From: Mediterraneibacter glycyrrhizinilyticus
GTDB taxonomy: Bacteria; Bacillota; Clostridia; Lachnospirales; Lachnospiraceae
Direction of reading: 5' to 3'
DNA: 64,000 bases
Assembly (NCBI RefSeq): GCF_015560805.1
Contig: NZ_JADMSO010000011.1
Coordinates: forward strand, 1-64,000
Shown: piece after piece, positions 6,122-13,657 of the stretch
Layout: each line of letters begins with the position of its first letter
Numbering within the stretch: the stretch's first letter is position 1
The notes under the pieces: model-generated
Databases searched by the model: none
The model's input: the letters and a program-made list of their open reading frames with translations, nothing else
Told to the model about the DNA's origin: nothing
Position numbers and translations under genes: made by a program

Positions 6122-6493
6122 TCAGCCGCGGGGTTCTTCCTCGATATGTTCCCGACCCTGATTGATGATCGTCCGTACATGATCGTCTGCAAGAGAATAG
6201 AAGACGGATTTTCCCTCTCTTCTGCTCTTCACAAGTTTGTTCTGCTTCAGGATCCGAAGTTGGTGCGAAATTGCAGACTGCGTCATGTTCAGTGCGCTCG
6301 CCAGATCACAGACACATACTTCCGCTTCGAACAAAACAAACAAGATACGAATCCTTGTAGAATCTCCAAACACTTTAAACAATTCTGCAAGATCATACAA
6401 TTCGGTCTCTTCCGGCATCGTCTCCCGCACGATTTTCAAAAGATTCTCATGGAGTTCAAACGACTCACAACATTCCACTTCTTTTCGTTCCAT
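6122..6493 (-). CDS. ArsR/SmtB-family metal-responsive repressor
   Basis: A 123-residue winged-helix repressor. EVCVCDLASALNMTQSAISHQLRILK spans the CadC/ArsR-type metal-binding CVC motif and the recognition helix. The N-terminus has a CCESF cysteine pair and the C-terminus a histidine/glutamate-rich tail (HVRTIINQGREHIEE) resembling the alpha-5 zinc site. These features suggest a soft-metal or zinc sensor. A strong promoter with an overlapping inverted repeat lies directly upstream, so autoregulation is likely. No efflux pump gene is adjacent; the nearest neighbour is the DUF2325 gene. Confidence 0.9.
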   Translation of the reverse strand: MERKEVECCESFELHENLLKIVRETMPEETELYDLAELFKVFGDSTRIRILFVLFEAEVCVCDLASALNMTQSAISHQLRILKQNKLVKSRREGKSVFYSLADDHVRTIINQGREHIEEEPRG

Positions 6494-6536
6494 GTGTCCA
6501 CCTCACAATTCTTTCGGATATGCCACGCTTCAATAT

Positions 6537-6552
6537 ATGAATACTCGTTCAT
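6537..6552. promoter_or_regulatory. ArsR-type operator
   Basis: ATGAA-TACTCG-TTCAT is a perfect inverted repeat within a longer AT-rich dyad (TATATGAA on one side, TATA on the other). The form is typical of SmtB/ArsR sites. It lies between the -10 and the start codon of the ArsR-type gene, fitting repression. Confidence 0.65.
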
Positions 6553-6558
6553 TCGTAT

Positions 6559-6586
6559 ATTATAGCATGCATCCTTTTCTTGTCAA
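6559..6586 (-). promoter_or_regulatory. promoter of the ArsR-type gene
   Basis: On the minus strand TTGACA (6581-6586) and TATAAT (6559-6564) are 16 bp apart, both perfect consensus. The -35 overlaps the last codons of the DUF2325 gene. Confidence 0.8.
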
Positions 6587-6906
6587 GCAGACTCCCCGTC
6601 GCATTTTCCCCCACATTTACTACATTTGCAACAACATTCTTCCAGAATCTCCGTCAGCGCTGTTCCGCTGCTTGTGTGACACCGTACGATATCCGTCCTG
6701 TCGCTGTCCACTTCATCCAGTGCACACCGCACCATCTTATGAGACACTGTACTCGTAAACAGGACAAGCACGTCCGGTGAACCAATTTGTTTATTGAAAT
6801 CAGCCCTCATCTGTGTAAATACTTTGACTTTGCATTTATATGACTTACAGATTTTTTTATACCGGGCTACCATTCGGTCATGCCCGCCTACGATCACAAC
6901 ACTCAT
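6583..6906 (-). CDS. DUF2325 protein with Cys-rich tail
   Basis: A 107-residue protein of the DUF2325 family, starting MSVVIVGGHDRM as usual for it, with a small Rossmann-like core. The last 20 residues are a cysteine-rich tail (ECCCKCSKCGGKC), very like the tail of the FeoB-associated protein at 4986. The family has no proven biochemical role but often sits beside iron-uptake genes. Two TTAG-type boxes lie 30-70 nt upstream, supporting metal-dependent expression. It may bind a metal through the tail (inference). Confidence 0.8.
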   Translation of the reverse strand: MSVVIVGGHDRMVARYKKICKSYKCKVKVFTQMRADFNKQIGSPDVLVLFTSTVSHKMVRCALDEVDSDRTDIVRCHTSSGTALTEILEECCCKCSKCGGKCDGESA

Positions 6907-6932
6907 ATACGCTTCTTCCTTTCCTTATCCGC

Positions 6933-6973
6933 TTAGTTAGTATTAGTTAACTTACGTGTTAGCATACACTAAC
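6933..6973. promoter_or_regulatory. pair of TTAG-type boxes upstream of the DUF2325 gene
   Basis: TTAG-TATTAG-TTAA (6937-6950, one mismatch) and GTTAG-CATACA-CTAAC (6958-6973) lie 8 bp apart. The second contains the same TTAG-N6-CTAA core as the box at 5172. The pair suggests binding of two dimers of a DtxR-like regulator. No other gene lies in 6907-7035. Confidence 0.55.
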
Positions 6974-7035
6974 CAATTAATTCTGTCAATAAGAAATGGA
7001 TTGGATTTTTTGATTTTTCCGTAATTTATCGAAGT

Positions 7036-8997
7036 TCAGATTTCTTCCGATTCTCCCAGCATCTGAAGCACTTCTTTTTTTAATGTCGCTTTCATATATC
7101 CGGCAGAGATCAAAACTGTGAGGATAAACAGTACGATGCCGCTTCCGACCGCCAAAGAAACCGGAGGCTTCTTCTCCCCCACTGTTTTTCGGCTTTCCAC
7201 TGTCTCTTTTGCTTTTCCTGTCTCTTCTTCTGTCTCTTCTTCTGTCTCTTCTTCCGTCTCTTCTTCCGTCTCTTCCCGGGCTTCTTTTTCCTCCTCTTCC
7301 TGTACTGCCTGAACCGCCGCATTACTGTAAGTCGTATCAAATTTCAACTCGGTTTCTGTCTGCTGTCCGACCATCCCGGCTGTCACATAGCCGGTCGCAC
7401 TTCCGCAAAAGATACCTGCGGCTGCCAGCACTAACATTCCCGATAATACGGAAACCGCACACTGACGTTTCATTCTTCCGAGAAGCCGCTCGACTGCGAT
7501 CCGTTCCTGCTGTCCGGATATAAAGAGATTTGCGAAAAACAATAAGATTAAAAATGCCATTGCCAGACCGCCGGTCAGAAAGATTTTCGACGTCATTTTT
7601 CTGCTTTCCAGATCCTCTTTTAATTCCGTATAACCGTTATCATAGAATTTGATCTCCAGCCCATCGATCCCCTGCTTCTTCCATCCCTCCATATATTCCG
7701 CGATCGAACCGTTCGGAATCTGAAAAGATGTATTGTAACTTTTCATATATCCGGCTCCTGTTCCCGTGATATTTTCACTCCATGCTTCTTCCGGCACGGT
7801 GTTCCATGGGATGATCACCTCATACATCCCCAATTCCGAATCATCTTTTTCCGCCGATTGACTGACCGTATAAATACCGACGATCTCATATTCCCGCTCA
7901 TCAAATACCGGATAAATCTCTCCATCCGTATTCAGGATCGTGGGCGCGGACATTCCGTTTCCGCCGATATAAGAATAGTCTGCATAATAGAGCGGCAATG
8001 TCACCCGATCTCCTACTTCTTTCTGTAAAAGCACTGCAAGCTGCCGTGGGATCAGACACACGTCCGCACCGGTTTCATACTCTTCTCCGGAAATGTCACG
8101 CCCCTCCTCAATCACTGCCTCGCCGCGGTAGAACGGCAGTAACAGTTTCGTTGCCCCCACCGGAGTGACCGGGATGGTCCTGTTTTCATATTCCTGAGTA
8201 TGTGCGACATTCAGCCACCGCTTCCCACTCTCTGTCTCATAAAATCCATCCGTTACCTCATCATAACGAACGCCTTTGTTCTCCCCACTCTCTAGATACG
8301 GATCCGGCTTTTGCTCTCCCTCCGGTGTAAACTGACTGGACACAATTCCATTTGTAAATCCATACTCCAATTCAAACGGATCCAATGCGTTCTGTGCCGC
8401 CAGTTCTCCATGCACAACGCCCTGTTCCCGAAGCTGCATGATATAGGTCTTTCCTGCTTCCAGTGTCACCGGTTTCTCCGAATGTTCATCGCAGAACCAG
8501 ATGATCTCCCCCTCTTCTCTGGCCCCCTCCAAAACCTTTGTGATCCGAAGCGGGATCGACTCGGTCGCCGTCCTTGTCTCTGACACCTCTGCCTCCACCG
8601 TGATCACCGTTGTTCTCCCGATCCCCTGATACATCTGCTCGACGTACGCTCCCAAATGCGGTCTTAATTTCGCCTCTGTCAGATAGGGCGCCCCGTCGAA
8701 ATCCAATACCTCATCCGAAATCCGCTCCCCATACACACCATGATTGATATAATAGTAATCCTGAAGCGTCTCATCCCAAACCGGAATTGTCCGGACTTCT
8801 TCCTGTTTCTGTTCTACGGTCGCAATGGTCGTATAGATTTTTTCAAATTCCCGTTCCATCCCACTGCTCTGATACCAAAGACTTCCTCCCACAGCAAGCA
8901 GCAATGCGGAAACTCCGACAAGCACGAAAAACAGGATACTCCGAAGAGGCGTCCGAAGCATTTGCTTCATACTATAATAAAATGTCATCATTCTCAC
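7036..8997 (-). CDS. FtsX/MacB-type ABC transporter permease
   Basis: A 653-residue permease and third gene of the MerR-linked ABC operon. TM1 is at residues 15-37, followed by a large extracytoplasmic domain (about 38-470). TM2 lies at 473-494 with the cytoplasmic coupling segment QQERIAVERLLGRMKRQ, TM3 at 515-540 and TM4 near 613-633. The TM3-TM4 loop is unusually long (about 70 residues) and contains a tandem EETE run near 574-595. This is the usual MacB/FtsX four-helix topology. It starts 1 nt past the ATPase stop. It probably pairs with the MerR-FtsX protein as a heterodimeric pore; the substrate is unknown (peptide, antibiotic or lipid are the family options). Confidence 0.88.
   Translation of the reverse strand: MRMMTFYYSMKQMLRTPLRSILFFVLVGVSALLLAVGGSLWYQSSGMEREFEKIYTTIATVEQKQEEVRTIPVWDETLQDYYYINHGVYGERISDEVLDFDGAPYLTEAKLRPHLGAYVEQMYQGIGRTTVITVEAEVSETRTATESIPLRITKVLEGAREEGEIIWFCDEHSEKPVTLEAGKTYIMQLREQGVVHGELAAQNALDPFELEYGFTNGIVSSQFTPEGEQKPDPYLESGENKGVRYDEVTDGFYETESGKRWLNVAHTQEYENRTIPVTPVGATKLLLPFYRGEAVIEEGRDISGEEYETGADVCLIPRQLAVLLQKEVGDRVTLPLYYADYSYIGGNGMSAPTILNTDGEIYPVFDEREYEIVGIYTVSQSAEKDDSELGMYEVIIPWNTVPEEAWSENITGTGAGYMKSYNTSFQIPNGSIAEYMEGWKKQGIDGLEIKFYDNGYTELKEDLESRKMTSKIFLTGGLAMAFLILLFFANLFISGQQERIAVERLLGRMKRQCAVSVLSGMLVLAAAGIFCGSATGYVTAGMVGQQTETELKFDTTYSNAAVQAVQEEEEKEAREETEEETEEETEEETEEETGKAKETVESRKTVGEKKPPVSLAVGSGIVLFILTVLISAGYMKATLKKEVLQMLGESEEI
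7219..7278. repeat. five 12-bp tandem repeats inside the permease gene
   Basis: Five units of the form (T/C)GTCTCTTC(T/C)(T/C)(C/G) run head to tail; the first three are identical. They encode EETE units in the extracytoplasmic TM3-TM4 loop. Because the unit is 12 bp, slippage would change loop length without shifting the frame. Confidence 0.9.
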
Positions 8998-8998
8998 C

Positions 8999-9676
8999 TC
9001 ATTGCTTTTTTATCGATAACAATCTCCCGTCTTTCATCGTCATTTTTACGTCTGCCGAAGATGCCACCATTGGATTATGTGTCACCACGATCACCACATA
9101 ATCCATCTCATGCGCCAGTTTCAACAAAAGCTGTACGATATGTTCCTCATTTTCCGAATCCAGGTTGCCGGTCGGTTCGTCAGCCAGCAGGATATTTCCG
9201 CCCGCTGCCATTGCCCGCGCGATCGCAACCCGCTGCTGCTCCCCGCCGCTCATCATTTTCGGATACTGGCGGAAAATTTTCTGATCCAATCCGACTTCCT
9301 CCAGACTTTCCACTGCGCGCTGCATCGCTTCTTTTCTGGATATCCCCTTCAATTCCAGCGGATACATCACATTTTCCAGCGCAGTCAGAAGCGGAAGCAA
9401 ATGAAATGCCTGATAGACGACTGCCGCCTGCTTTCTGCGGTACGCATCCCGATCCATTGTTGCAAGATCTGTTCCCCTGATCAACACTCGCCCGGAATCC
9501 GGCGCATCCAGTCCTGCCAGCAGCGACAAAAATGTACTTTTTCCGCTCCCGGATTCTCCGACGATCGCATACAGACTGCCGGCTTCAAACCCACACGAAA
9601 TATCTTTGACCGCTTCGATTTTCTGATATTGATTCTGATAAGAATAACTGATATGTTCCACTTTGATCTGTTCCAT
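8999..9676 (-). CDS. MacB/LolD-type ABC transporter ATPase
   Basis: A 225-residue ATPase. The Walker A is GESGSGKST (about residue 37), the Q-loop is in [10 protein letters not shown], the signature is [15 protein letters not shown] (about 143), the Walker B is [12 protein letters not shown] and the H-loop is in VVTHNP. The ADEPTGNLD form marks the MacB/LolD/BceA group that partners FtsX-type permeases. It sits between the two permease genes of the operon with gaps of 1 and 9 nt, so one transcript and one complex are likely. Confidence 0.95.
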
Positions 9677-9685
9677 ATTTCCCTC

Positions 9686-11650
9686 TCAATCCCGGCGTGC
9701 CAACACAGCCGCTATACTGATCCGTCCAAACATCCACATCGCTGCCGCCGCTCCCAGAAGATAACACACAAGAAAGATCACCCAGATCAACCCGGCATGC
9801 CTTATCTTTGCAGCGCCCGCCGCAACTCCCGCAATCGCTCCGAGTCCTCCGCCGAAAGCCGCCAGCAGGATATGTTCCGAAAAAAACAAAAGGATACATC
9901 GTTTTTTACTTGTTCCAAGCGCCCGCATCACTGCATATTCTTCTCTTCTTCCCTGAAGAAGCAAATGCGGGACAACATAACCTGTCAGAAGAACGATCAG
10001 AAACAAAAACGGAAGATAGCCTTTCAGCAGATTCAATGTCCGATCCAGATTTCCTGCCGTTTCTATAAATACCGCATCATCAAACCGGATCGCGGATCCT
10101 GCATACGAATCTTTCGCCGCAGTGACAACCGTCTTCATCCCGGCATCTTTCAAGTCTTGCTTTAATGCATTTAATTCCATCGGATCTTTCACGGTGAATG
10201 AAAGCGCGGAAGCAAAATACGTTTTATCATTCTTTTCAAACAACTGCTTTGCATAAGAAAGAGGAATCAACAATTCCGGCGGCTGCGCTTCCGCCAATGT
10301 ATCCGACCGCTCCATCACTCCTACGATCGTCATGTTTTCCGTACTCATCTCTTCCCGCTCCAAATATACTCCGGACAATGTCTGTTTGTAACGTCCCAGA
10401 TCCAATGTGATCATCTCTCCAGGTTCATATCCGTACTTTTCCAGAAACGCCTTATCCGCAATACAGACTTCCCGTTCGTCTTTAAAAAGATCCCAATTCC
10501 AATCCTCACACCACTGTACTGATTTTTCGGCGATCTTCTTCGTACATGCTTCTGAACTGACACCCCATATTTTTGTTTCCTCCGTTGCCGGTATCGCTTT
10601 CTGTCCCGTCTCTGTTTTTTCTTGATCCGGAGAGATATTTTTATCACTTTTAACTTTACCAAGCAACTCTACAATTTCTTTTACATCTTTTACATTTCCG
10701 TTTTTATATAACGCATCCAATACTTCCTCTCGTATAAAAAGACCGTTTTTCAACATTCCGTTTGGACTTGCGATTTCCGCTGTCACCGGGATCTTCTCCG
10801 CAAGACCGTCAAATTGTGCCTGTGTGCGGATCAAATTTCCAAGGTAAAATGTAAGTACGAGCACTGTCAAAAAGCAAATAGTCAGATTCAATATACTTTT
10901 TGTACGGTGCCTATGTATGTTCATACCGATCAAATGGATTCCCTGAAATAATTTCTGCCGTCCCGGCGAGATCGTCTGATCCGGGCGCGTCCGTTTTTCT
11001 CGTCTGCATATGATCTTTGTTCCCATGCATTTTGTCTTTGGATCTTCTTCCAGAACAGAGACAACCGTATAATTGACACTGTCAAGCTTGATCTCCGGGT
11101 ATCGCCCCTTTTTTATGATTTTCAGTTTCATCCCATGTCCCGCGGCATATTCCTGTATCGCCTGCAGGAGTGTCCCCTCCGTATTTATCGGATATGGCAC
11201 ATGAAATGAAAATCTGCGTTCTTTTTCCTCCTGAGCGATCTGCTTATAATCATTCACGATCTGTGCAAACATACCGCCGCTTCCGGACATACGCTCCATC
11301 CGTTCCAGATAAGCATTCACATCAATAACCGCATTCTTCTCTTTCCGGATACTGGCACATACTTCGATCGCAGCCTGCAGCTGCTCTTTCTGTGAAAGAA
11401 GTTGTTCTCTTTGATGCTCAACCGCCTCTTTCACCGAAACTTCTCCGTTTACTACGCGTTCGATTTCTTTCAGCGGCATATCCAGCATCCGAAGCATCTT
11501 GATCAGTTTAAGGCGCTCCACATCTTTTTGGGAATAATCCCGGTAATCATTCCCATCCGTCCGCGCCGGCTCCAAAAGCCCCTGACGCTCATAATACCGG
11601 ATATTCTGCCTTGTCAATCCGGTCAGCTCTTCCACCTGTTTTGTGTTCAC
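9686..11650 (-). CDS. MerR regulator fused to an FtsX-type ABC permease
   Basis: One 654-residue frame. Residues 1-70 are a MerR winged helix (TKQVEELTGLTRQNIRYYER, then YRDYSQKDVERLKLIKMLRM) and 72-108 the helix that usually dimerises MerR proteins. Residues about 147-215 form an unassigned cytoplasmic domain. TM1 is at 253-273, an extracytoplasmic domain covers about 275-540, TM2 is near 545-565, TM3 near 592-612 and TM4 near 617-642; GRREEYAVMRALGTSKKR is the FtsX coupling segment. It begins with GTG, with AAAGGAGG 9 nt ahead, and heads the operon permease-ATPase-permease. The DNA-binding domain would face the cytoplasm beside the ATPase, so the transporter could control its own promoter directly (inference). 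No frameshift or internal start suggests two separate proteins. Confidence 0.88.
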   Translation of the reverse strand: MNTKQVEELTGLTRQNIRYYERQGLLEPARTDGNDYRDYSQKDVERLKLIKMLRMLDMPLKEIERVVNGEVSVKEAVEHQREQLLSQKEQLQAAIEVCASIRKEKNAVIDVNAYLERMERMSGSGGMFAQIVNDYKQIAQEEKERRFSFHVPYPINTEGTLLQAIQEYAAGHGMKLKIIKKGRYPEIKLDSVNYTVVSVLEEDPKTKCMGTKIICRREKRTRPDQTISPGRQKLFQGIHLIGMNIHRHRTKSILNLTICFLTVLVLTFYLGNLIRTQAQFDGLAEKIPVTAEIASPNGMLKNGLFIREEVLDALYKNGNVKDVKEIVELLGKVKSDKNISPDQEKTETGQKAIPATEETKIWGVSSEACTKKIAEKSVQWCEDWNWDLFKDEREVCIADKAFLEKYGYEPGEMITLDLGRYKQTLSGVYLEREEMSTENMTIVGVMERSDTLAEAQPPELLIPLSYAKQLFEKNDKTYFASALSFTVKDPMELNALKQDLKDAGMKTVVTAAKDSYAGSAIRFDDAVFIETAGNLDRTLNLLKGYLPFLFLIVLLTGYVVPHLLLQGRREEYAVMRALGTSKKRCILLFFSEHILLAAFGGGLGAIAGVAAGAAKIRHAGLIWVIFLVCYLLGAAAAMWMFGRISIAAVLARRD

Positions 11651-11680
11651 ACCCTCACCTCCTTTGCTTGTTATGCTCCT

Positions 11681-11711
11681 ATCTTAAAGTGTATACCACT
11701 CATACAGTCAA
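11681..11711 (-). promoter_or_regulatory. MerR-type promoter with 19-bp spacer
   Basis: On the minus strand TTGACT (-35, 11706-11711) and TAAGAT (-10, 11681-11686) are separated by exactly 19 bp, the over-long spacing that MerR activators correct by twisting DNA. The spacer holds the dyad AGTG-GTATA-CACT. It lies directly upstream of the MerR-FtsX gene, whose Shine-Dalgarno follows. Confidence 0.8.
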
Positions 11712-11730
11712 GCGTTTTTTCATTTTTACG

Positions 11731-11760
11731 AAAAAAACGGCAGTTCCTCACAAACTGCCG
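11731..11760 (-). terminator. terminator downstream of the SdpI-like gene
   Basis: CGGCAGTT and AACTGCCG pair across a 7-nt loop, followed on the minus strand by seven T. It separates the SdpI-like gene from the MerR-FtsX promoter. Confidence 0.88.
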
Positions 11761-11868
11761 CTTCATACAATCTTACTTTTTCATCACCAGATGATACTCC
11801 GAATCATAATACATCCCCAGTTCCCGGCGGATCCGGTCATTCACCCGATCCAACGCTTCCTTACCTTT

Positions 11869-12198
11869 TCACCGCAGTGCCATATAGATCACCCAAAATT
11901 CCGTAACAAGAACGAAACCCAAAACACCATTGATCATCCAATTGTACTGCACATCCGACCAAAACGCCTTGGAATGTGTCAGAACATATTTTACCTTTTC
12001 CCTGCCTGTCAGCCATGCAATAAAAACTTCCAACACCGGAAACAGGAAAATCTGGATCTTTCCGCTGAAATCATCCGCAACTCCATTTGAAAAATGCATC
12101 GGTATCAGATCCGGCAGGAAAAGCAAACTGATGACTGCTGCCAGACAGCCGACAATACAAATTCCCCACGCTATTTTTCTGCTGTTTAAAAATCTCAT
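11869..12198 (-). CDS. SdpI/DUF1648-like membrane protein, apparently cut short by TGA
   Basis: A 109-residue protein with a TM near residues 9-28, the DUF1648 signature LIPMHFSNGVADDFSG, and further TMs near 46-62 and 85-105. The start chosen (12198) has GAGGG 6-7 nt ahead; the longer frame would overlap the promoter. After the TGA at 11869-11871 the same frame continues for 31 sense codons to TAA at 11773-11775, reading KGKEALDRVNDRIRRELG and ending HLVMKK, a natural-looking charged C-terminus. A point nonsense change, or a sequencing error, is likely. Such proteins include SdpI-type immunity proteins; a role here is not shown. Confidence 0.7.
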   Translation of the reverse strand: MRFLNSRKIAWGICIVGCLAAVISLLFLPDLIPMHFSNGVADDFSGKIQIFLFPVLEVFIAWLTGREKVKYVLTHSKAFWSDVQYNWMINGVLGFVLVTEFWVIYMALR

Positions 12199-12208
12199 AT
12201 TCATCCCT

Positions 12209-12239
12209 CTTTCTATACAAGGTACTTTGTTATAGAAAG
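12209..12239. promoter_or_regulatory. inverted repeat at the SdpI-like gene start region, possible operator
   Basis: CTTTCTATA (12209-12217) and TATAGAAAG (12231-12239) are perfect 9-bp arms around 13 nt, with CAAG/CTTG extending the dyad inward. It lies immediately downstream of the -10, suited to repression. No regulator gene is adjacent. Confidence 0.5.
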
Positions 12240-12240
12240 T

Positions 12241-12269
12241 ATTATAATACCCGATCCGAAACTTTTCAA
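12241..12269 (-). promoter_or_regulatory. promoter of the SdpI-like gene
   Basis: On the minus strand TTGAAA (12264-12269), a 17-bp spacer and TATAAT (12241-12246). It lies between the radA stop and the chosen start codon, and supports starting translation at 12198. Confidence 0.75.
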
Positions 12270-12301
12270 CATTTTCACTCGAATTCTTCACCCATTGTAT
12301 T

Positions 12302-13657
12302 TTAAATCAGGTTCATCGCATCACTGATATTCTTCACACCCATCACTTTGATTCCCCGGATCCCTTTTACCATATCCAATGACACTTCCGGCACAACACA
12401 TGTCTCAAATCCCAGTTTCTTCGCCTCGGCGACACGCTGTTCCGGCATATTGACCGCACGCACCTCGCCGCTTAATCCGACTTCTCCAAATACGATCATC
12501 TTCTCATCGATCGGACGATTCTTGTAACTGGATACGATTGCCATCACGATTCCCAGATCGATGGCCGGCTCGTTCATCCGGATCCCTCCCGCAATATTGA
12601 CATATGCGTCGCAGTTTCCGAGATGCAGACCGATCCTCTTCTCCAGAACGGCCATCAACAGATTGACGCGGTTATAATCGGTTCCGGTCGCCGTCCGTCT
12701 CGGCATTCCGAAATTACTCTCACATACAAGAGCCTGGATCTCGATCAGAAGCGGACGTGTCCCCTCCATCGAACAAGCCACCACCGAACCCGATGCATTT
12801 TCCGGCTTCCCGCTCAGCATATATTCCGACGGATTTTCTACTTCCACAAGACCATTCTGCCGCATCTCAAAAACTCCGATCTCATTGGTCGATCCAAACC
12901 GGTTCTTGACGCCGCGCAGTATCCGGTAAGACGCATGCCGGTCGCCCTCGAAATAAAGCACGGTATCCACCATATGTTCCAGCACTCTCGGTCCGGCGAC
13001 CGTTCCCTCCTTTGTCACATGTCCGACAATGAAGATCGTGATCCCCAAGCCTTTTGCAAGCTGCATAAATACATTCGTCGATTCCCGCACCTGAGAGACA
13101 CTTCCCGGCGCAGATGTCACTTCTTCGCTGTACATCGTCTGGATCGAATCTATGATGACCAGTTCCGGCTTCCTTTTCTCGATCACGGAACGGATCGCAG
13201 CAAGGTTCGTCTCACACAAAAGTTTTAAATTTTCCTGAAACGTCCCCATCCGGTTTGCACGGAGTTTGATCTGGGAAAGAGATTCCTCCCCGGAAATATA
13301 TAACACCGAACGGTTCTCGGAAAGTTTCTGACAGACCTGCAAAAGCAGCGTTGATTTTCCGATCCCCGGATCACCGCCCACCAAAACCAACGATCCCGGC
13401 ACGATCCCGCCGCCAAGCACCCGATCCAATTCCGCCATCCCGGTTGTAATGCGGTCCTGATCATCCGCATTCACCTCTGACAATGATACGATCTGTATTT
13501 CCCGATCCGTCCTGCTACCGGAAGTCACCGAAGAAGCGATCACTTTCTCTTCCACAAATGTATTCCATTCTTTACACGCCGGACACTGCCCGAGCCACTT
13601 TGTCTCCTCATGTCCGCAATTCTGACAAAAATAAACTGTCTTTTTTCCTTTCGCCAC
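12302..13657 (-). CDS. radA: DNA repair protein RadA
   Basis: A 451-residue RecA-like ATPase that promotes branch migration of recombination intermediates. In order: an N-terminal four-cysteine zinc finger (CQNCG and CPAC, residues 11-31), Walker A GGDPGIGKST near 94, the RadA-specific KNRFG motif near 250, and a C-terminal Lon-like domain (about 275-451). The length is normal. It is followed on the same strand by the SdpI-like gene, which has its own promoter. Confidence 0.97.
   Translation of the reverse strand: MAKGKKTVYFCQNCGHEETKWLGQCPACKEWNTFVEEKVIASSVTSGSRTDREIQIVSLSEVNADDQDRITTGMAELDRVLGGGIVPGSLVLVGGDPGIGKSTLLLQVCQKLSENRSVLYISGEESLSQIKLRANRMGTFQENLKLLCETNLAAIRSVIEKRKPELVIIDSIQTMYSEEVTSAPGSVSQVRESTNVFMQLAKGLGITIFIVGHVTKEGTVAGPRVLEHMVDTVLYFEGDRHASYRILRGVKNRFGSTNEIGVFEMRQNGLVEVENPSEYMLSGKPENASGSVVACSMEGTRPLLIEIQALVCESNFGMPRRTATGTDYNRVNLLMAVLEKRIGLHLGNCDAYVNIAGGIRMNEPAIDLGIVMAIVSSYKNRPIDEKMIVFGEVGLSGEVRAVNMPEQRVAEAKKLGFETCVVPEVSLDMVKGIRGIKVMGVKNISDAMNLI

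Follow-up and report, generated by a model that had tools for sequence, protein, structure and literature searches.

Coupling of transporter activity to gene expression has been studied mainly in Bce-type systems, which combine a transporter, its ATPase, a kinase and a regulator, and BceB-type permeases have ten helices. MerR proteins act as dimers; BmrR, CadR and CueR are soluble and carry a small C-terminal effector part. In a Bce module, the transporter has been proposed to signal its conformational cycling and thereby increase its own expression (PMC10314905). BcrR of Enterococcus faecalis is described as a membrane-bound one-component regulator of the peptide-antibiotic ABC transporter BcrAB; bcrR is reported to be an independent transcriptional unit and its product to have no obvious extracellular domains (PMC3968067). 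MerR proteins are described as repressing promoters with 19–20 bp spacers and then activating them via DNA distortion (PMC9909328). A survey of transmembrane transcription regulators counts 50,302 such proteins; its main text does not contain the word "permease" and has "MerR" and "transporter" only in the reference list, and its supplementary lists may include such proteins (PMC10269533).

The window, the 64,000-nt stretch of a Mediterraneibacter glycyrrhizinilyticus contig that we analysed, contains an ORF in which the original prediction had recognized a MerR DNA-binding domain joined to an FtsX-type permease. The prediction knew of no characterised example, and in the literature on membrane-bound and transporter-fused regulators (titles and abstract openings of the papers listed, in several cases the top of a longer list, most subscription papers lying outside this scope) we found no characterised MerR-permease fusion either. 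The features of the locus are as follows.

9686–11650, minus strand: MerR-FtsX fusion ORF, 654 aa (Pfam, AlphaFold2, 33 loci)
11441–11650, minus strand: MerR winged-helix DNA-binding domain, residues 1–70 (Pfam MerR_1 at 1–68)
11342–11434, minus strand: long helix, residues 73–103, at the site of the MerR dimerisation helix (AlphaFold2 model)
11000–11215, minus strand: small cytoplasmic alpha/beta domain, residues 146–217 (AlphaFold2 model; marginal DUF4318 match)
10808–10966, minus strand: pre-membrane helix and TM1, residues 229–281 (hydropathy; AlphaFold2, helix 229–247)
10076–10807, minus strand: extracellular MacB/LolE-like domain, residues 282–525 (Pfam, AlphaFold2, Foldseek)
9725–10075, minus strand: TM2–TM4, residues 526–642, with helix 569–577 between TM2 and TM3 (Pfam, hydropathy, AlphaFold2)
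8999–9676, minus strand: ABC ATPase of the LolD/MacB/FtsE type, 225 aa, 9 nt downstream of the fusion (Pfam, NCBIfam)
7036–8997, minus strand: second permease, 653 aa, four TM helices, without MerR, 1 nt downstream of the ATPase gene
11681–11711, minus strand: MerR-type promoter with TTGACT and TAAGAT 19 bp apart, the spacer holding an imperfect dyad (promoter present at all 33 fused loci)
11869–12291: DUF1648 gene, the upstream neighbour (Pfam)

The fusion of a MerR DNA-binding domain with a LolE/MacB-type permease is real and not a sequencing artefact. The frame, predicted to run uninterrupted through 654 residues, is also open in ten relatives (29–52% identity). It starts with GTG, in the context aaaggaggtgagggtGTG, with a strong ribosome-binding site ahead. 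The stretch originally assigned to it, 9686–11711, was too long: the ORF stops at 11650, and 11711 marks the outer limit of the promoter −35 element.

The predicted winged helix at residues 1–70 was recovered by Pfam, where MerR_1 (PF13411) matched residues 1–68 above its cut-off (E 2.3e-19); R14–R18, Y20, E21, N34 and Y36–S40, in the recognition helix and wing, were invariant in 11 aligned rows. An AlphaFold2 model with an alignment of 36 rows as input (mean pLDDT 86.7, pTM 0.68) gave the order winged helix, helix 73–103, two more helices, alpha/beta domain, pre-membrane helix, TM1, extracellular domain and TM2–TM4. The long helix 73–103 lies where a dimerisation helix had been expected and is presumably the predicted dimer helix. 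The lowest pLDDT within the cytoplasmic part was at residues 111–130 (block means 67 and 61). The cytoplasmic domain, placed at about residues 147–215 by the prediction, occupies residues 146–217 in the model, with the topology beta-alpha-beta-beta-beta-beta.

The permease half was likewise complete as foreseen: hydropathy, AlphaFold2 and Foldseek agreed on four TM helices, the first two separated by a large extracellular domain, and hydropathy placed the helices at 253–271, 539–557, 585–603 and 614–632. FtsX matched residues 549–648 above its cut-off (E 4.1e-6), and the MacB_PCD match had 21.5 bits, below its cut-off of 27. In Foldseek, the model matched chain E of LolCDE (9rlc, E 1.2e-14) and MacB (5lil, E 7.1e-13), and weakly BmrR (3d71, E 4.1e-4) and CadR (6jni, E 6.1e-4). 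Whole-model TM-scores were low (maximum 0.35), as is usual for a chain with several domains. A DNA-binding domain and a TM region, the two marks of a transmembrane transcription regulator, are found on this one chain.

An ATPase and a second permease had been predicted in the same operon, and both are there, separated by the gaps of 9 and 1 nt. This gene order, whose conservation was proposed as a check, was found downstream of the fusion in all 30 intact fused loci; in L089 and L091, the second permease extends up to the end of the contig. The ATPase matched PF00005 (E 9e-35), and what we take to be the ATPase motifs, VTHN among them, are intact in its translation; among the NCBIfam models, it matched those of LolD, MacB, FtsE and a putative bacteriocin exporter, in each case below the cut-off. 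The FtsX match of the second permease had 23.0 bits, below the cut-off of 25.5. An acidic repeat of EEET units lies between its TM3 and TM4 (window 7215–7310). In Schaedlerella arabinosiphila (genome G002; L043 8794–12541), the second permease is present in two tandem copies after the ATPase.

A genome-collection scan gave 72 loci, 31 of them with MerR and permease in one frame (28 intact). Together with the window and with L048, which was absent from that scan, these make 33 distinct fused loci (L043–L047 and L049–L053 coincide with ten of these). Thirty are intact, two (L095 and L096) are cut by contig ends, and one is shortened. Nearly all are in named Lachnospiraceae, a set of gut bacteria including Schaedlerella, Faecalicatena, Mediterraneibacter, Claveliimonas, Hespellia and Lachnoclostridium; NCBI places Eubacterium sp. 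ER2 (L105) in Eubacteriaceae and the source of L079 only as Clostridiales. The shortened frame, in Mediterraneibacter catenae (L106 5001–6317), has 438 codons and a promoter, and neither the ATPase nor the second permease was found downstream.

In the family sample of 397 genomes, which includes the window's own, the fusion was present in 7 others; in the genus sample it was present in 4 of 11 other genomes, including G010, where the end of a contig truncates it. Only the window's protein covered both halves in the class sample (391 genomes, E up to 1e-25) and in the phylum sample (299 genomes, E up to 1e-30), two partial and overlapping samples with few candidates scored per genome and blind to an unrelated convergent fusion. 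Among plasmids, 106 records matched the fusion, none covering 80% of the query, and the best 10 of the 106 matches were confined to residues 1–134. Elsewhere in the window's genome there are 10 MerR places, all without predicted TM helices.

In a permease tree of 39 rows, a single branch (support 96/94) separated the 30 fused rows from the 9 unfused ones. Neither the root nor the branching order among the unfused rows is certain, because some of these rows have long branches and the outgroup rows do not lie on one side of a branch. The single clade of 30 intact fusions suggests one fusion event; homologues in which the two parts are always separate genes, which would have spoken against the prediction, are not what was found. 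A frameshift or assembly error as the origin of the fusion was ruled out by the 30 intact fusions across many assemblies. In the unfused relatives L054–L057 and L176, a permease, an ATPase and a second permease form one cluster.

The stretch 11670–11720 had been named as a candidate DNA target, and a MerR-type promoter was found inside it. With spacers of 14–22 bp tested, TTGACN-19-TANNNT was present within 200 nt upstream of all 33 fused loci (0.12 expected from mononucleotide shuffles). The element is kept although the distance from the −10 end to the start codon varies from 22 to 124 nt. A reading with a 14-bp spacer is also present at 24 fused loci; we interpret it as an overlapping reading of this site, within the TATA-rich dyad. 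Over 30 distinct sites, the dyad had a mean of 5.63 of 9 pairs (shuffles, at most 3.47). The locus has what marks a MerR target, a 19–20 bp spacer with a dyad: the spacer is 19 bp at all 33 loci, and the dyad is imperfect with its centre 2 bp away from the spacer centre. A chance promoter was ruled out by the comparison with shuffles. No RNA element was found in 6400–12500 at Rfam gathering scores.

With up to 2 mismatches, the 3.0-Mb genome has a single copy of the operator pattern, at the fusion operon (11681–11711). When up to 1 mismatch is allowed, 9 of 10 fusion-bearing relatives have the pattern at the fusion, and the 4 relatives that lack the fusion have no copy at all. The remaining relative with the fusion, G159, has no operator within 2 mismatches of the fixed pattern, and its 19-bp promoter is present (L123). 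G047, G006 and G005 have one further site each, at 2 mismatches. Both the operator and a MerR-like ORF were absent at the five unfused operons L054–L057 and L176, the nearer five of the nine unfused rows in the permease tree; the DNA scanned reached 345 nt upstream of L054 and, at the remaining operons, up to 600 nt ahead of each start.

Genome G002 has one additional perfect operator site. Thirty-five nucleotides downstream of this copy (L175 7634–7664, minus strand) comes a DUF6034 gene, which is followed by genes for predicted membrane proteins and an ABC ATPase, an ABC-transporter gene set distinct from the fusion operon. Since the extra site precedes a different ABC-transporter operon, regulation would not be purely local, and the fusion may also control a second transporter in Schaedlerella arabinosiphila. 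No paper linking MerR with DUF6034 was found among the full texts searched.

Judged by sequence identity, the MerR part is the best conserved within the fusion. In nine closer loci, identity to the window was 70–78% for MerR, 41–44% for the cytoplasmic domain and 44–47% for the permease (35% for the cut permease of L046); the ATPase had 71–77% in the six of these nine loci where it was detected. The wider intact set gave 68–78% for MerR and 40–48% for the permease at closer loci, and 49–62% and 27–31%, respectively, at six distant intact loci. Of nine pairs, seven had a MerR dN/dS (residues 1–75) of 0.04–0.10, while one pair gave zero and another no estimate; the permease values over the nine were 0.07–0.30. 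The MerR value was the lowest among four parts in 5 of 7 usable pairs, the exceptions being L088/L090 and L080/L081.

The cytoplasmic domain also occurs in stand-alone proteins, in which MerR and this domain are followed by one or two predicted C-terminal TM helices. This architecture was found in all 14 loci L108–L121 (274–301 aa) and in the 12 loci L059–L070; the two sets overlap in three places, leaving 23 distinct loci. A 19-bp promoter lies within 100 nt of the start in 10 of the 14 loci L108–L121, by a script that favoured 19 over other spacings. No homologue of the fusion's permease pair was found beside the stand-alone proteins. We infer that the fusion may have arisen by the joining of such a membrane MerR to a permease gene, with the permease TM1 replacing the anchor.

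DUF4318 matched the domain marginally in 6 of 30 aligned fusion members (best E 1.6e-4). The fold search gave no convincing match (best E 0.031), with the regulatory domains of CIPK (2zfd) and SAD kinase (4yom) among the weak ones; against PDB sequences, the sole match up to E 10 had E 0.21. A search of the cytoplasmic part for known ligand domains found none. Its YPEF motif is absent in the L052/L053 group.

Membrane-anchored MerR proteins look common in Clostridia. Other joins of MerR with membrane parts were seen in L074 (5807–7249), L122 (5001–6383), L077 (5201–6352) and L075 (5696–6688), the partners being an RDD domain, a CPBP/Rce1-like domain, and five or six predicted TM helices without a Pfam name. 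In L068 (2192–6913), a stand-alone membrane MerR adjoins two DUF1648-like genes, near a DUF2325-like gene; DUF1648 and DUF2325 genes are also near the fusion operon in the window. In L060 (5792–11854), membrane-protein genes and an ABC-ATPase-like gene are followed by a stand-alone membrane MerR in the same direction.

The fusion had been thought to take the place of a two-component system. A kinase and response-regulator pair does lie upstream of one unfused relative (L057), but such a pair also lies beside one fused locus. Pfam analysis of the upstream ORF at ten fused loci, which covered this one neighbour per locus, found the pair, adjacent as in Bce systems, at L044 only. The other nine upstream ORFs encode an amylase, an ABC ATPase protein, a DUF4432 protein, a VTT protein, a MarR regulator, a flavodoxin, an ion channel and, at two loci, ABC-2 proteins. 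In Hespellia (L052 8221–9105 and L053 8083–9447), an ABC-2 membrane protein gene is just 5′ of the fusion in the same direction. No kinase or response regulator was among the scanned neighbours of the unfused L055, L056 and L176, and L056 has a divergent XRE-type ORF. The DUF1648 gene was rejected as a part of the system: over eleven loci, it gave only weak matches, inside two second permeases.

The unfused operon of L176 (5035–12942) lies among genes for a subtilase, an ABC exporter and peptide-maturation-like proteins. The surrounding genes include matches to TIGR04066 (a partial frame) and TIGR04069, both below the cut-offs, and a 60-aa Cys-rich ORF without a match among the NCBIfam models. 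The cluster is likely one for peptide maturation. As a lead from this one locus, the cargo of fusion-type exporters could be related to peptide export or immunity.

Because the promoter is present at 33 of 33 fused loci, is absent from the DNA scanned at five unfused operons and has a single site in the window's genome, an autoregulatory transporter that is also a transcription factor is well supported. That the protein is an exporter-bound MerR controlling its own operon is, on this genomic evidence, very probable. Of the original prediction, the architecture stands: a real fusion, a complete permease, an ATPase with a second permease, and a MerR-type promoter. The MerR half, held at the membrane, would bind the promoter at 11681–11711 as a dimer and repress it at rest, as MerR proteins do. 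Engagement of a substrate by the extracellular domain and cycling of the ATPases would move the membrane-entry helix and TM1; this movement would change the MerR dimer, distort the spacer and turn the promoter on. The outcome would be positive feedback in which the amount of exporter is matched to demand, a Bce-like flux sensing without a kinase or separate regulator. Because only one of the two permeases has a MerR, each MerR dimer formed on the operator would link a pair of exporter complexes or a pair of fusion subunits.

We lean slightly towards the transport state as the signal, an assignment suggested by the architecture, because MerR and the cytoplasmic parts lead directly into the membrane-entry helix and TM1. 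In its fuller form, the steps of the export cycle would be read by a MerR dimer on the moving permease, flux would set the promoter output, and the operator would tether the locus at the membrane; this we rate a little below an even chance. The same tentative estimate applies to a single protein doing this without a kinase, phosphorelay or free ligand receptor, with the locus beside the exporter that it encodes.

The main rival locates the sensor elsewhere. The cytoplasmic domain is common to the stand-alone proteins, so the sensor could be this domain and not the permease. Domain 146–217 or the membrane face would bind an inducer and drive MerR, the permease would be just an anchor and payload, and the transport state would be irrelevant. 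The same domain linking MerR to TM helices in the 23 stand-alone loci, and the 19-bp promoters at 10 of 14 of them by the script mentioned above, fit such a tethered one-component sensor. However, the domain is, with the permease, the least conserved part (41–44%), has lost YPEF in the L052/L053 group, and yielded neither a known ligand domain nor a convincing fold, and we regard this explanation as rather unlikely. That MerR is on just one of the two permeases, and that MerR proteins work as dimers, would also suit a sensor of assembly, in which unpaired fusion subunits form MerR dimers on the promoter and pairing stops them, setting subunit balance and not a substrate response. This improbable scheme leaves unexplained both the domain shared with the stand-alone regulators and the second site in G002.

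Release of the MerR part by proteolysis, to act as a soluble regulator, could draw on residues 111–130, whose low model confidence may reflect flexibility. No cleavage site was identified, though, and the one upstream gene at each of nine fused loci encodes no protease (Pfam), making release a very improbable account. A vestigial MerR without DNA-binding function, for which we found no supporting observation, is hardly credible in view of the low dN/dS, the recognition helix and wing that are unchanged across 11 rows, and the promoter kept in 33 of 33 loci.

For the preferred reading, in which transport state drives the promoter, a single chain unites sensor and switch, and its promoter lends itself to assays in isolation; flux sensing would thus be testable via single changes. 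If it is true, the DNA distortion typical of MerR could be driven from the membrane. The fusion also points to a broader set of membrane-anchored MerR proteins in Clostridia.

Among known systems, LolCDE and MacB share the permease fold and the ATPase type with the fusion operon, and LolC and LolE are, as here, two different permeases of one system. To our knowledge, the LolCDE and MacB exporters have no DNA-binding domain, and the DNA-binding type of BcrR is not MerR. LolCDE and MacB chains (down to E 1.2e-14) ranked above BceABS (best E 3.9e-8) in Foldseek, and the fusion permease, by hydropathy and the model, has four helices instead of the ten of the BceB type. With BmrR, CadR and CueR, the fusion has in common the winged helix with the following helix and the logic of a long-spacer promoter. 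Like the fusion, transmembrane transcription regulators, as the survey describes them, have a DNA-binding domain and a transmembrane region in one protein (PMC10269533). BcrR, as reported, is also a membrane-bound DNA-binding regulator of an ABC transporter working without a kinase, but there the regulator and transporter are separate proteins, whereas here the DNA-binding domain is inside the permease (PMC3968067). Bce modules (BceAB-BceRS) are described as signalling via a histidine kinase and a response regulator, whereas the circuit proposed for the fusion would need neither (PMC10314905).
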